In this document: one piece after another, positions 4,929 through 54,187 of the stretch
Layout: each line of letters starts with the position of its first letter
How positions within the stretch are numbered: the first letter of the stretch is position 1
Notes under the pieces: model-generated
Databases searched by the model: none
The model's input: the letters and a program-made list of their open reading frames with translations, nothing else
What the model was told of the DNA's origin: nothing
Assembly: GCA_018822665.1 (NCBI GenBank)
Contig: JAHJJX010000027.1
Coordinates: 62,001-126,000 of the forward strand
From: a bacterium
GTDB lineage: Bacteria; Campylobacterota; Campylobacteria; Campylobacterales; Sulfurimonadaceae
Direction of reading: 5' to 3'
Length of the DNA: 64,000 nt
Translations under genes and position numbers: made by a program

Positions 4929-7754
4929 TTATTGATGCAGGGCCAACTCTTTTTTCAGATATTTTCCTGTATAACTGCCTGTTTTTTCATACGTTCTTGC
5001 CAGCTCTTCGGGTGGGCCCTCGGCTATAATGAGACCGCCTCCCGAACCGCCTTCTGGTCCCATATCTATAACGTAATCTGCATTTTTTATCATGTCGAGA
5101 TTATGCTCGATTATGAGAACGCTGTTTCCTAGTTCAACAAAATGATGCAGTACTTTTGTAAGTCTATCAACATCTGCAAAGTGAAGCCCTGTTGTCGGCT
5201 CATCCAAGATATAGAGCGTTTGTCCTGTATCTTTACGACTTAATTCTTTGCTTAGTTTTATTCTTTGTGCTTCACCGCCCGAGAGTGTTACCGCATTTTG
5301 CCCTAAAGTAATATAGCCAAGTCCTACATCCACGAGTGTCTGCATTTTTTGATGTATTTTAGGAATAGAATTGAAAAATTCATAGGCTTCATTAACACTC
5401 ATATTTAACACATCCGATATACTTTTTCCTTTGTAAAAAACTTCTAAGGTTTGATTATTGTATCTGCGGCCTCTGCAAGAGTCACACTTCACCATGATAT
5501 CTGGCAGGAAGTGCATTTCTATTTTTATTTCGCCCTCCCCCTGACATTTCTCGCATCTGCCGCCTTTGACATTAAAACTAAATCTAGAACTTGTATAGCC
5601 TCGAATTTGCGACTCTTTTGTTTGAGAAAACAGATTTCTAATCTCATCCATTACACCGGTATATGTTGCGGGATTACTTCTTGGGGTTCTTCCTATGGGG
5701 CTTTGGTCCAAGTAAATCACTTTATCCACATGCTCAAGACCTGTTATCTCCACACCTGCAACTTTGTTAACTTTTCTGGCATGATTGAGTAATTCTCTTG
5801 CTGTTGGAAGAAGTGTTTGAAGCATAAGAGAACTTTTCCCGCTTCCGCTTACCCCGGTTATACATACAAAATTATTGAGTGGAATTCTTGCACTCAAGTT
5901 ACTGATATTGTTTATAGTGACATTTTTTATCTCTATAAACTTCTCTTGCTCTCTTCTGTAAAAATATTCTATCTTTTTTCTACCATAGAGATAATCCGCC
6001 GTAAGTGTTTTAGCTTTTTTCAATTTGTCTAAAGTACCGCTAAAAACAACTTCTCCGCCAAATTTTCCGGCACCGGGACCTATGTCGACAATAAAATCAG
6101 CATTTTCTATGGTTTCTTTATCATGTTCAACTACTATGACGCTATTGCCTTTTTCTTGCAAACTTCTCAGCGTTCGGATGAGCTTGAGCGTGTCTCTTTC
6201 ATGAAGCCCGATACTCGGCTCATCCAGAACATACATTACACCCGTTAAACCACTGCCGATTTGGGAGGCTATTCTTATTCTTTGAGCCTCACCGCCGCTA
6301 ATGCTTCTCGCATCACGCCCCAAAGTGATATAACCGAGTCCAACATCAAACAAGAAGTATAATCGTTCCCTTATTTCATTTAAAATTGGTGCCGCGATTT
6401 GTGTATTTTGAAGATTTAAATAAGTGAAATTATCTTTATTTTCAAACCACTCATACGTTTTTGCTATAGGCATATTTAAAAGTTCAGATATCCCTTTTTG
6501 CCCAACTTTCACAGCCAAAGATTCCCTTTTTAATCTATGAGAATTACAGATATTGCAAACTTTTTCACTCATATAGTCAGCCAATTCTTTTTCATCTTTA
6601 AACATGTCGTAGGCTATTTTAATGATTCCGGGCCACATTCTTTTGACTTCGTGGTTTTTCCACATAAAAGAAACTTCATCTATTCCGCCATGTAAAATAG
6701 CCTTTTTTTTGTAATCCGGCAAATCCGAATAGGGTATTGTTACATCGATGTCGTTATGTGCGCAAAAACCTTTTAAAAATGTAAAAAAATATCCCTTATT
6801 AAAACCATAAACAATTTTAACGGCACCCTTGTCCACGCTTAAATCTTGGTCTATAATTTTCTCATGGTCTAGCGCATATCGCAGTCCCAAACCGTCACAC
6901 TCTTTACAAGCACCTTTTGGCGAGTTAAATGAAAAAGAGAGCGGCTCAAGCGGGTCAAAACTTATCTTACAATCAAAACAGGCATTATGCTCACTATAAT
7001 GGATACTCGCATTTTTCAATCCAAGTTCTTCATGATTGAGTATCTCTATCTCCAACTCACCGTAACTCTCTTGCAGTGCTTTTTCAACATCCGCCGCAAT
7101 GCGCTCTTTGTTTTCTTCTTTAACAACAACTCTGTCTATAACAACTTTTATAGTATGTTTTTTAGTTTTACTAAGCTCAATCTCTTCATCGAGTCTGACC
7201 ATAACACCGTCTATCATCGCCCTTACATACCCTTTGTGTACGAGCGACTCAATCATGTCGGCATAAGAGCCTTTTTTTTCATTCACAAGGGGAGCCAAAA
7301 GAATCAGCTTTGCGCCCTCAGGAAGTTTAGCCACCTCTGCTATAATATCTGAAGCACTCATTTGTGAGATGACTTTGCCGCATTTATGACAATGCTGAAT
7401 CCCTACACGCGCATAAAGAAGTCTGAAATAATCATAGATTTCGGTTATAGTTCCGACGGTTGAACGAGGATTTTTAGAAGTTGTTTTTTGATCTATTGCT
7501 ATGGCTGGTGTCAGTCCTTCTATTTTATCGACATCGGGTTTTCCCACACGATCAAGGAACTGTCTGGCATAAGAAGACAAAGATTCCATATAGCGCCTCT
7601 GCCCTTCTGCGTATAAAGTATCAAAAGCTAAAGTTGATTTTCCGCTTCCGCTTAATCCTGTAAAAACAACCAACTTATTTTTTGGAATTTCGAGTGAAAT
7701 ATTCTTTAAATTATTTTCTCTTGCACCTGTTATTTTAATAACATCTTTTTTCAT
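4929..7754 (-). CDS. uvrA: Excinuclease ABC subunit A
   Basis: Damage-recognition ATPase of nucleotide excision repair, 941 residues, the usual full length. Two ABC ATPase modules are visible: Walker A GLSGSGKST near residue 34 and GVSGSGKSS in the second half, each paired with an ABC signature (SISGGEAQRI and TLSGGEAQRI). Zinc-finger cysteine pairs are at CFDC/CKEC in the first module and CEKC/CDSC in the second. It works with UvrB and UvrC, which are not in this window. It ends at the word-based hairpin at 4891-4918. A one-mismatch copy of the dispersed word lies at 5726-5735 within the codons for EHVDK. Confidence 0.98.
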   Translation of the reverse strand: MKKDVIKITGARENNLKNISLEIPKNKLVVFTGLSGSGKSTLAFDTLYAEGQRRYMESLSSYARQFLDRVGKPDVDKIEGLTPAIAIDQKTTSKNPRSTVGTITEIYDYFRLLYARVGIQHCHKCGKVISQMSASDIIAEVAKLPEGAKLILLAPLVNEKKGSYADMIESLVHKGYVRAMIDGVMVRLDEEIELSKTKKHTIKVVIDRVVVKEENKERIAADVEKALQESYGELEIEILNHEELGLKNASIHYSEHNACFDCKISFDPLEPLSFSFNSPKGACKECDGLGLRYALDHEKIIDQDLSVDKGAVKIVYGFNKGYFFTFLKGFCAHNDIDVTIPYSDLPDYKKKAILHGGIDEVSFMWKNHEVKRMWPGIIKIAYDMFKDEKELADYMSEKVCNICNSHRLKRESLAVKVGQKGISELLNMPIAKTYEWFENKDNFTYLNLQNTQIAAPILNEIRERLYFLFDVGLGYITLGRDARSISGGEAQRIRIASQIGSGLTGVMYVLDEPSIGLHERDTLKLIRTLRSLQEKGNSVIVVEHDKETIENADFIVDIGPGAGKFGGEVVFSGTLDKLKKAKTLTADYLYGRKKIEYFYRREQEKFIEIKNVTINNISNLSARIPLNNFVCITGVSGSGKSSLMLQTLLPTARELLNHARKVNKVAGVEITGLEHVDKVIYLDQSPIGRTPRSNPATYTGVMDEIRNLFSQTKESQIRGYTSSRFSFNVKGGRCEKCQGEGEIKIEMHFLPDIMVKCDSCRGRRYNNQTLEVFYKGKSISDVLNMSVNEAYEFFNSIPKIHQKMQTLVDVGLGYITLGQNAVTLSGGEAQRIKLSKELSRKDTGQTLYILDEPTTGLHFADVDRLTKVLHHFVELGNSVLIIEHNLDMIKNADYVIDMGPEGGSGGGLIIAEGPPEELARTYEKTGSYTGKYLKKELALHQ

Positions 7755-50731: not shown

Positions 50732-51583
50732 CTAGAATGTAAATACATACCTCACGATAGTTTCCATTGCTGTATCATTTTCTTTCATTGCAAAAACTGA
50801 TGAAAGATTGAACGAGTCATACTCAGAAAAAATACCTCGGTAAATAACATCAAATCCATAAATTGGGTCTATACTGGACATATACGCAGCGGCCTCCGTA
50901 TCTGCATCAAGTGAAGTGTTTTTATTAGTAAAGTCGGTTACATTTAAAGCTAAAAATGTAGACAATCCGCCAAACATTGTTATACCAAAATTATTAACGG
51001 GATAGAAAGTACCACTCAAGACTGTACTTGGTTTTAAACCTATACCGTAACTTGTTTCATCATAAGCATAATCAGGACCATTATTATTGTTTACTGAAAA
51101 ATCACCGCTCATAGTATATAAAACTGCATGAAGCGATGTTGCATTTTTTATTTTAAACATATCAGATTCATAAAGATTTACGCTAAATGAAGGTCTTATA
51201 CCGACATAAAATCCATTTTTGCTATATGTATTGTTATAAATATTTCCGCCATCTGTGAATACTTTATCTTTTAGTTCGCTGTTTATCACACCTAATGTAT
51301 AAGATAATTCAAACATCTTGCCTATGATAGTTTCCGTATTTGCAGGCAAGGTGATAATAATCCCTTGATTTTTGTACTCTGCATCACCGATTTTATCGCC
51401 ATAGTATTCATCTTCAAGGGAAAGATTTACATTAAACTGCATAAAACCTACACCTATTTGATTTTCTTGCATCTCAAATACATCAATCGGAACAGAAGAC
51501 GGCAATTCCATACTCTTGTCCTGGGCCATCAAAGCAGTAAGCAATAATGCACAAGCACCTAATATTTTTACTAATTTATCCAT
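50732..51583 (-). CDS. Predicted outer-membrane beta-barrel protein
   Basis: 283-residue exported protein, signal peptide MDKLVKILGACALLLTALMA. The mature part is alternating beta strands with aromatic ends (IGVGFMQFNVNLSLEDEYY) and finishes in VRYVFTF, a typical barrel-closing C-terminal Phe. I do not recognise the family. It is divergent from a 7TM histidine kinase and shares a 107-base upstream region containing a tandem direct repeat, so it may be controlled by that two-component system. Confidence 0.65.
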   Translation of the reverse strand: MDKLVKILGACALLLTALMAQDKSMELPSSVPIDVFEMQENQIGVGFMQFNVNLSLEDEYYGDKIGDAEYKNQGIIITLPANTETIIGKMFELSYTLGVINSELKDKVFTDGGNIYNNTYSKNGFYVGIRPSFSVNLYESDMFKIKNATSLHAVLYTMSGDFSVNNNNGPDYAYDETSYGIGLKPSTVLSGTFYPVNNFGITMFGGLSTFLALNVTDFTNKNTSLDADTEAAAYMSSIDPIYGFDVIYRGIFSEYDSFNLSSVFAMKENDTAMETIVRYVFTF

Positions 51584-51626
51584 ACAAATTCCTCTTAAAT
51601 CTCTTTATCGGTATCCTAACAAAAGC

Positions 51627-51649
51627 GTGTCACATTTGGTGTCACATTT
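51627..51649. promoter_or_regulatory. Tandem direct repeat between outer-membrane gene and kinase operon
   Basis: GTGTCACATTT occurs twice (51627-51637 and 51639-51649), 12 bases apart. Each start codon of the divergent genes is about 42-66 bases from it. Two same-direction half-sites spaced by about one helical turn are the usual operator form for OmpR/PhoB-type regulators, and such a regulator is encoded at 53504-54187. Confidence 0.6.
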
Positions 51650-51690
51650 TATAGATATTTGTTTAAAGTAAATCATGCTAGTGTTGCATA

Positions 51691-53511
51691 ATGAAAAAAT
51701 ATTTTTATACACTTTTTATAATTTTTGCTAATCTCCACCTTTATGCGATAGAGATAGATGACAAAACTTCAAAATTTTCTATTTTGGAGAAGTCATCTCT
51801 TTTTGTAGATACAACAAATCTTCTCTCAAGAGAACAGCTTCGAGACGATTTCTTTGTTAAAAACACAAAAGCGACTCTAGGTTTGGGTTTTGTTGCACAG
51901 AGTAGTCTGTGGATAAAATTCACACTCAAAAACACTTCGCCCAAGCCGATACAAAAAGTTTTGGAATATGCCAATGTCGTAACCGAAAATATACAACTTT
52001 ACTATGACGATACGGTTATTTATGATGGCATGTGGAACATCCATCCCCAAAGAGAAAGTTTACGTCCATCTTTTGTAATTGATTTAGATTCCTATGAAGA
52101 AAAAACTTTCTATATACAAGCGCATTCAAAGATATCCACCCTTATAGCCAAACTTGTTTTGTGGGAAAAAGATGATTTTGTAAAACATGACTACAAACAT
52201 AAAACTTATATTTTTATATTTTTCTCCGTCATTGCAACGCTTCTGGTTTACAACTTTATGTTGCTTGTATTTACAAAAGACAGAGCCTATTTATATTATG
52301 TTTTGTATCTTGCCAGTGTCATATTTTTTCAACTAAACTATCTTGGAGTCTCACAATTTTATCTTTTCTCAAGTACGCTTTCAATTTTAATCTCAAAAGC
52401 AAGTATGATTTATATCTCTTTTTTAATCATGACAATCGTACTTTTTACAAGAGAGTTTTTAAATACGGCACAATTCAAAAAGATAGATTTTGTTTTAAAA
52501 TTTTATCTTTACATTACTCCCGTTATTGCCCTTTTAAGTTATGATAATTTTTTATTCGATTTAAACATCATAGCTTTTTTTATTCCTCTGGGCATTTTTA
52601 CGGTAATGAGTGCTTTTTATGCACTCTTTCATGGTGTAAAACAAGCAAAATACTATGTCATTGGCTGGAGTTTTGTCATATTCTCGCTTCTCTTAATGAA
52701 CCTAAGAACCATAGGTGTCTTTGATATTTCCAAATATTTTTCTTATGTCAACGAGTTTGCATTTGTGCTTGAAGCCTTACTCTTTTCCATAGCACTCGCG
52801 CATAGAATCAAAGTGCTTACCGAAGAAAAAAATAAGGCGGATAAAGAGTTAATAGAGATTCAAAAGAATGAAAAAAACAGGCTTGAAGAAGTTGTGAATG
52901 AAAAAACAAAAGATTTAAAATCTGCTTTGCAAGAAAAAGATATTTTGTATAAAGAGTTAAACCATAGAGTAAAAAATAACCTTCAAATGATACTCTCCTT
53001 AATCAAACTGCAAATCGGAAAAAGCAAATCGGAAAACACTAAAGATGAGCTTGGTATAACAAAAAGCAGAATCAACTCCATTTCGAGCCTCTATGAATCG
53101 CTGAATTTGCAAAACAAAGAGTCCAAAGCAGATACTTTAGCTTATTTTACAAATATAATACAAGATATCCAAATTGGATTTGAGAAAAAAGTGAAGATTG
53201 CTTATGACATACGATATAACCTTAGCATCAATCAGATGCTCTATTGCGGACTTATTCTCAATGAGCTTGTCGTCAATTCATTTAAATACGCTTTTAAAAA
53301 AGAGGGTGAGATTTACATCGGCCTCTTCAAAAAAGATGCACTGATATATTTTACGATTGAAGATAACGGAAGAGGCTTTAAGCAAGAAGAGAGCCAGTCG
53401 CTAGGACTTATCATTGTCAAAACGCTCGCGCAAAAACAACTGTTTGGAACATTAGATATTGACTCGGGCAAGGGAACAAAAACAACTATAATATGGGAAG
53501 AAAATGAATAA
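51691..53511 (+). CDS. 7TMR-DISM sensor histidine kinase
   Basis: 606-residue membrane kinase. After a signal peptide (MKKYFYTLFIIFANLHLYA) comes a periplasmic 7TMR-DISMED2 domain (residues ~20-165), seven transmembrane helices (~175-375), a coiled linker, and a HisKA_2-type dimerisation domain with ELNHRVKNNLQMILSL (phospho-acceptor His425). The HATPase domain has LILNELVVNSFKYAF (N box) and DNGRGF (G box). DISMED2 domains bind carbohydrates or related ligands in known relatives; the ligand here is unknown. The response regulator gene overlaps its end. The exact word at 52027-52036 encodes G-M-W. Confidence 0.92.
   Translation: MKKYFYTLFIIFANLHLYAIEIDDKTSKFSILEKSSLFVDTTNLLSREQLRDDFFVKNTKATLGLGFVAQSSLWIKFTLKNTSPKPIQKVLEYANVVTENIQLYYDDTVIYDGMWNIHPQRESLRPSFVIDLDSYEEKTFYIQAHSKISTLIAKLVLWEKDDFVKHDYKHKTYIFIFFSVIATLLVYNFMLLVFTKDRAYLYYVLYLASVIFFQLNYLGVSQFYLFSSTLSILISKASMIYISFLIMTIVLFTREFLNTAQFKKIDFVLKFYLYITPVIALLSYDNFLFDLNIIAFFIPLGIFTVMSAFYALFHGVKQAKYYVIGWSFVIFSLLLMNLRTIGVFDISKYFSYVNEFAFVLEALLFSIALAHRIKVLTEEKNKADKELIEIQKNEKNRLEEVVNEKTKDLKSALQEKDILYKELNHRVKNNLQMILSLIKLQIGKSKSENTKDELGITKSRINSISSLYESLNLQNKESKADTLAYFTNIIQDIQIGFEKKVKIAYDIRYNLSINQMLYCGLILNELVVNSFKYAFKKEGEIYIGLFKKDALIYFTIEDNGRGFKQEESQSLGLIIVKTLAQKQLFGTLDIDSGKGTKTTIIWEENE
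52027..52036 (+). repeat. Dispersed word in sensor kinase gene
   Basis: Exact copy on the coding strand, extended GGCATGTGGAA, read G-M-W-N. Confidence 0.9.
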
Positions 53512-54187
53512 TTTAAAAATATTAATCATAGAAGATGAGAGTTTAGTCGCTCTGGAATTATCAAGCACTATATCCGCTCTCGGATACAATGTAGTGGAGT
53601 ATGCAACAAACATTAAAACGGCTGTACAACTAATGAACGAATATGAGGTAAATCTCATTTTAATGGATATAAATTTAAACGATACTATGGACGGTATTGA
53701 ACTCTACAAAAGCTTCAATACAAAGATTTCTCTTATCTATCTTACTGCCTATAAAGATGAAATAACTCTATCCAGAGCAATAGAAACGGAGCCTTTGGGA
53801 TACCTCATAAAGCCGCACGATGAATATGAACTCAAGGCATTATTGAAGTTAGCTTCATATAAGATGCAAAACAACACTTTCAAGTCGGTGCAAAATCAAG
53901 AGCTGTTAAAGATAGGCAACGGGTATGTTTTTAATAAAAAAGAAAATAAACTTTTTTTTAATGACATTTTCATATCTCTTAGCTCAAAAGAGTTGCAGCT
54001 CCTTAAGCTCCTAATAAATGCAAGAGGAAATGTTGTAACTTTTCAAACAATCGAAGATGAAATTTGGTCTGAAAAAATCGTTAGCGCTTCAGCACTCAGA
54101 ACTCTTATTTACAGATTGAGAGGAAAGTTTGAATACAAACTCATTCAAAGCGAATTCAATTTTGGAATAAAATTACAGCCGGAATAG
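53504..54187 (+). CDS. Response regulator with winged-helix output domain
   Basis: 227 residues. The receiver (1-~120) has acidic pocket residues EDES, phospho-acceptor Asp in LILMDINLND and the signalling Lys in YLIKPHD. The C-terminal domain (~140-227) is an OmpR-like winged helix (FISLSSKELQLLKLLINARGNVVTFQTIEDEIWSE...SALRTLIYRLRGKF). HisKA_2 kinases more often have other output types, so this pairing is slightly unusual. It overlaps the kinase gene by eight bases and ends at a word-pair hairpin. Confidence 0.9.
   Translation: MNNLKILIIEDESLVALELSSTISALGYNVVEYATNIKTAVQLMNEYEVNLILMDINLNDTMDGIELYKSFNTKISLIYLTAYKDEITLSRAIETEPLGYLIKPHDEYELKALLKLASYKMQNNTFKSVQNQELLKIGNGYVFNKKENKLFFNDIFISLSSKELQLLKLLINARGNVVTFQTIEDEIWSEKIVSASALRTLIYRLRGKFEYKLIQSEFNFGIKLQPE

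Follow-up and report, generated by a model that had tools for sequence, protein, structure and literature searches.

A conserved 12-bp tandem repeat as the probable operator of a 7TMR-DISM kinase–regulator pair in Sulfurimonadaceae

What is the role of an exact tandem repeat placed almost midway between two divergent genes, one for a predicted outer-membrane protein and the other for a sensor kinase? This question is raised by a stretch of 64,000 nucleotides from a Sulfurimonadaceae genome (hereafter the window; its genome is G000), in which GTGTCACATTT occurs twice without mismatch, at 51627–51637 and 51639–51649, with a start-to-start distance of 12 bp. Read on the minus strand, the tandem becomes TGTGAC-ACCAAA-TGTGAC (51629–51646); the TGTGAC reading runs toward the barrel gene and the TGTCAC reading away from it, and the half-site is nearly palindromic (TGT-G-ACA). 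The repeat lies in the 107-bp intergenic gap between the minus-strand gene for a 283-aa protein and the plus-strand kinase–regulator operon, and from its centre (51638) the distance is 55 bp to the start codon of the barrel (51583, minus strand) and 53 bp to that of the kinase (51691, plus strand). An initial annotation had correctly described both the two exact copies 12 bases apart and their near-equal distance to the divergent start codons. It had taken the repeat for the operator of the regulator, controlling both itself and the barrel, and had suggested for the barrel a possible part in admitting or processing the ligand sensed by the DISMED2 domain. Markov-1 simulations put the expected number of exact 11-bp direct repeats at an offset of 10–14 at 0.12 for 64 kb and at about 0.0002 for an intergenic region of 107 bp. 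The full tandem is a single copy in the whole 2.5-Mb genome, even with up to three mismatches allowed. The features of the locus are listed in Table 1.

Table 1. Features around the tandem repeat, in window coordinates.
Feature	Position	Strand	Basis or remark
Outer-membrane beta-barrel protein (predicted), 283 aa, signal helix and 12 strands; divergent gene and predicted target	50732..51583	-	Structure model
Shine-Dalgarno-like GAGGA of barrel gene	51590..51594	-	Sequence
-10 hexamer TAGGAT of barrel promoter	51613..51618	-	Predicted from invariant spacing in 8 kinase-adjacent sites
Tandem 12-bp direct repeat GTGTCACATTT-G-GTGTCACATTT	51627..51649	.	Predicted operator
Extended -10 (TGCTAGTGT) of kinase gene	51676..51684	+	6 nt before ATG
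Sensor histidine kinase, 606 aa: 7TMR-DISMED2, 7TMR-DISM 7TM, HisKA_2, HATPase_c	51691..53511	+	Pfam domains
OmpR/PhoB-type response regulator, 227 aa: receiver (Asp55) and Trans_reg_C; recognition helix region S-x-x-RTLIYRLR	53504..54187	+	

The flanking genes bear out their earlier description as a kinase with 7TMR-DISMED2, 7TM, HisKA_2 and HATPase domains and a regulator with receiver and Trans_reg_C domains. The kinase matches PF07696, PF07695, PF07568 and PF02518 above their cut-offs and is a 7TMR-DISM sensor kinase by its domains. The regulator combines a receiver (PF00072, 67 bits against a cut-off of 30.2), whose phosphorylatable Asp55 is invariant across 11 relatives, with a C-terminal Trans_reg_C winged helix (PF00486, 44.5 bits against a cut-off of 26.2). 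It is not PhoB proper, scoring 64.1 bits with the PhoB equivalog HMM TIGR02154, for which the cut-off is 296.2. Its recognition-helix region is conserved in operator-bearing species and different in a paralog encoded on contig C12 of the same genome. For the 283-aa barrel protein, a Pfam search gave no match. The structure prediction that the initial annotation had called for, built with three sequences, gives 12 beta strands besides a signal helix at a mean pLDDT of 60 (modest confidence); the PDB structures that it most resembles, a Legionella porin and OmpT-type proteins, are barrels, at TM ~0.5. A barrel fold is plausible as a class at this pLDDT; the model gives no reading of function.

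The initial annotation had also suggested looking for the repeat upstream of orthologous loci, where it indeed recurs. Among 228 genomes of the family, there are ten close kinase orthologs including the window's, the others being 50–62% identical. A tandem TGTCAC-N6-TGTCAC stands upstream of the kinase in six of the ten (G000, G107, G097, G174, G183, G091) and likewise in two more distant relatives (G036, G143), making eight genomes, while the spacer bases and flanking sequence of the tandem diverge between loci. Conserved direct repeats of 12-bp period accompany an OmpR/PhoB-type regulator gene. Slippage could in principle make one tandem of two 11-mers, but a functionless chance duplication is contradicted by this conservation across species despite spacer divergence, and by the fixed −10 spacing and second sites described below, which leave that reading a next to negligible probability.

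The gene on the other side of the repeat varies. It encodes the barrel in G000 and G107, proteins of 1606, 1376 and 1422 aa in G097, G183 and G091, respectively (those of G097 and G091 being Ig/cadherin-like by Pfam), a 737-aa protein in G174, and other proteins in G036 and G143. What is kept across the orthologous loci compared is the repeat, not the barrel. Of the 200 family genomes searched, only two besides the window genome gave a clear barrel ortholog, one of them without a kinase/regulator ortholog: in G177 the barrel is 70% identical, both the kinase/regulator ortholog and the repeat are absent, and other response regulators are retained. These observations bear on the proposal that the operator couples the DISMED2 sensor to a barrel that admits or processes its ligand. 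Such coupling would be compatible with operator function, and in G000 and G107 the barrel gene diverges from the adjacent kinase/regulator, with the operator common to both. However, most kinase orthologs face a different divergent gene, one barrel ortholog occurs without the kinase, and the only other exact site of the window genome lies at a lipoprotein and type II secretion system (T2SS) cluster. The ligand role is accordingly not sustained, and we consider it very unlikely; the barrel is one exchangeable, predicted target.

By its nearest named relatives, the window kinase belongs to Campylobacterota. A contig scan with the kinase alignment returned mainly distant HisKA_2 kinases, the one useful locus being from Arcobacteraceae (L053). 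There, upstream of a kinase homolog at 6001, a 12-bp tandem GTGATTATTTTC-GTGATTATTTAAGGG-TATAAT has the same geometry and faces the kinase itself, which suggests a diverged operator in another family.

Relative to the promoter of the divergent gene, the repeat keeps a fixed position at the kinase-adjacent loci. Read toward the divergent gene, the site has the form TGTGAC-N6-TGTGAC-N10-TANNNT (also written TANNAT). In all eight kinase-adjacent sites, which were picked without any −10 requirement, the gap to the −10 hexamer is 10 bp, and TATAAT is matched best at offset 10, with an average of 4.75/6; the runner-up among 31 offsets reaches 3.1. In sites aligned from several genomes, −10 positions 4 and 5, unforced by the search, are A in 21/29 and 25/29 sites. 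In the window, TAGGAT begins exactly 10 bp past the operator's last GTGAC, and the barrel promoter has no separate −35 element, the operator filling that region. Because the 10-bp gap is invariant, the box sits over the −35 region, spanning about −40 to −23. The eight sites thus have the geometry of a PhoB-like class II promoter, with −35 overlap and fixed −10 distance, from which activation itself is predicted. A regulator bound over the −35 region could instead occlude it, repressing the divergent gene and perhaps its own operon too, and the position of the box is compatible with this. On the other hand, occlusion would need an independent −35 element, which the promoter lacks, and an invariant 10-bp gap is what contact with sigma region 4 would be expected to demand, whereas a repressor would tolerate varied positions. 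Repression is therefore regarded as unlikely, and activation of the divergent gene by the regulator as probable.

On the kinase side, the arrangement is looser. An extended −10 (TGNTANNNT) lies 5–6 nt ahead of the kinase ATG in six close orthologs, the window's included; so short a distance implies a leaderless mRNA, and the kinase gene appears to be leaderless (51676–51693). The box is 25–27 bp from this −10 in five orthologs and 33 bp in the window genome, and such variation indicates that the kinase side is not strictly constrained. Of the operator proposal in the initial annotation, the assignment to the regulator and the control of the barrel are therefore very probable, given the conservation with the kinase/regulator, the sites that follow the targets and the fixed 10-bp gap, while self-control through the same box is possible but uncertain.

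Across the 228 family genomes, the exact operator with its −10 was found in 10/14 kinase-bearing genomes vs. 6/214 without the kinase (p = 8e-11). This figure is partly circular, as the pattern was derived from kinase-adjacent sites, and a distal-only test was therefore made: with kinase-adjacent sites left out, the counts are 5/14 vs. 6/214 (p = 1.5e-4). When tandems were found without a −10 requirement, TANNNT stood at offset 10 in 21/28 sites of kinase-bearing genomes vs. 2/46 elsewhere (p = 1.5e-10), with G225 and G094 counted as kinase-bearing; moving G225 to the other side gives 18/25 vs. 5/49 (p = 1e-7), and distal sites alone give 10/17 vs. 5/49 (p = 1.5e-4). Site tallies were counted by hand from listed coordinates, and all co-occurrence p values are indicative because related genomes are non-independent.

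The association has exceptions. G196, G213 and G202, which form one clade (support 100/100), have the kinase/regulator in a different operon layout and no site; the metagenome-assembled genome G225 (74% complete) has six sites, and a search for the regulator found none in it; G077 has sites elsewhere and none at the kinase. Together with the nearly palindromic half-sites, the G225 sites without a detected regulator and the G196/G213/G202 regulators without sites could point to a different factor, Crp/Fnr-like or a paralogous response regulator, whose site lies near the kinase/regulator through shared regulation. Yet the sites follow the kinase/regulator across genera and loci, G177 has no site despite its other response regulators, and direct repeats with a period of about one turn are typical of OmpR-type regulators, unlike the inverted-repeat sites of Crp/Fnr. 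A different factor is thus a marginal candidate with a very low probability. A Crp/Fnr site as such, suggested by the half-sites, was rejected because the repeats are direct and their occurrence follows that of the regulator. As the operator of the regulator at 53504 the repeat is well supported by the comparisons above, and this reading is very probable.

The initial annotation had further proposed a search elsewhere in the genome. The operator with its −10 has exactly one other exact site in the window genome, at C26:44886–44918, ahead of a gene for an 1829-aa protein with Ig/cadherin-like repeats and a lipoprotein-type signal read by eye. Downstream on the same strand follow genes for GspG, GspF, a GspC-like PDZ protein, GspD, GspE and further pseudopilins; with matches to PF00263, PF00437, PF00482 and PF08334 (GspD secretin, GspE ATPase, GspF, pseudopilins), the G000:C26 cluster is a type II secretion cluster. 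Most of the 1829-aa lipoprotein can be aligned, at 49% identity, with the G097 protein that diverges from a kinase with the same operator, and in G097, G091 and G183 a T2SS cluster with its own large protein adjoins the kinase/regulator, the operator lying between. The two loci are exchanged in G135, which the kinase tree places as the sister of G000 (support 83/88). Here the kinase/regulator stands beside the T2SS cluster. At the counterpart of the window locus (methyltransferase – barrel-like gene – DJ-1 – pyrD) it is missing, but an exact operator is kept before a 241-aa barrel-like gene. This barrel and the window's show no BLAST similarity, and so may not be orthologs. The G135 T2SS promoter has only a variant, TGTAAC-N5-AGTAAC-N10-TATAAT, of 11-bp period (read by eye). 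A search for the operator within 1.5 kb of T2SS GspG genes in other genomes, with at most one mismatch, found none.

Several further loci were noted. The paralogous kinase/regulator on C12 (L051; G000:C12:37210–38870), where the repeat was not found, adjoins another giant Ig-like lipoprotein homolog (36%, its frame with one stop), hinting that sensor pairs of this kind are repeatedly linked to giant surface proteins. Expanded site sets occur in G077 (3), G143 (9) and G225 (6) (L195–L199, L221–L224), and some of these sites precede genes for small secreted proteins, a class 3 lipase or an FeeM-like N-acyl amino acid synthase. G008 has an exact site ahead of a response-regulator gene (L225 1592–1660). 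In G107, a second exact site (C5; L194 6758–6790) is flanked by a plus-strand gene and by another kinase gene; toward its −10, no gene is evident.

The following model is based on what was observed: the sequence of the box is conserved, its spacing is fixed, it occurs together with the kinase/regulator, and the loci are swapped. The kinase would control the regulator, two protomers of which would bind head-to-tail on TGTGAC-N6-TGTGAC with a 12-bp period; once phosphorylated, the regulator would recruit sigma-70 RNA polymerase in the manner of PhoB, replacing the −35 element, and so switch on barrel transcription. The same box would drive the 1829-aa lipoprotein gene that heads the T2SS cluster. 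That the repeat is the binding site of this regulator, which in its phosphorylated form under the kinase most likely activates the barrel in a PhoB-like way and drives the C26 lipoprotein, we consider highly likely on these comparisons of genomes. The regulon would consist of cell-surface proteins and a secretion machine, with its exact membership shifting between species. A broader proposal is more tentative, its chance being somewhat short of even: an undescribed Campylobacterota regulon in which a TGTGAC-N6-TGTGAC-N10-TANAAT box switches a T2SS, a giant Ig-like lipoprotein and a barrel, and thereby a surface-attachment or solid-substrate interface, on cue, and whose kinase/regulator genes have, over evolutionary time, relocated from one of their own target loci to another.

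To our knowledge, few targets of 7TMR-DISM sensors have been assigned in Campylobacterota. For a sensor of this class, an operator sequence and a target list have now been obtained from sequence alone, linking it to type II secretion and very large surface proteins and making both the signal and the function of the surface proteins directly testable. The exchange of the regulator genes between two target loci, each of which has kept an operator, is a natural experiment of unusual clarity for predicting regulons. No published description of a TGTGAC-N6-TGTGAC box or regulon was found in the open-access literature, and both the switch and its set of genes appear to be new.

Three known systems invite comparison. 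In Sulfurovum indicum, the T2SS genes GspF/G/H, a cadherin-repeat surface protein and two-component genes are induced together by elemental sulfur (PMC10045233). These are the same gene classes in the same phylum, compared by class with no orthology implied; the genus is another and no operator is described there. Given this joint induction on solid sulfur, the regulon might serve attachment to a solid substrate, which is a reasonable guess and no more. The 7TMR-DISM receptors SagS, LadS and RetS of Pseudomonas aeruginosa govern attachment and biofilm, as far as the cited accounts describe them (PMC8544897, PMC4866733), and share with the present pair a 7TMR-DISM sensor feeding a kinase; here, in contrast, a simple HisKA_2 kinase forms one operon with an OmpR-type DNA-binding regulator, with no membership in the Gac/Rsm network as far as seen. 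In promoter design, the present system resembles PhoB and the pho box of E. coli and others, where an OmpR-type regulator recognises a pair of half-sites arranged head-to-tail, with a TGTCA-like core, and the box overlaps the −35 region while the promoter retains its −10 (PMC4415409, PMC3348028, PMC10294691). The pho box comprises two 11-nt units (PMC4415409) and overlaps the −35 region (PMC3348028). Its period is 11 bp, whereas that of the window site, of both exact sites in the genome and of the kinase-adjacent sites, the last found without a spacing filter on the −10, is 12 bp; the kinase is PhoR there and a 7TMR-DISM/HisKA_2 kinase here, and the predicted targets differ as well, being surface proteins and a T2SS in the present system.
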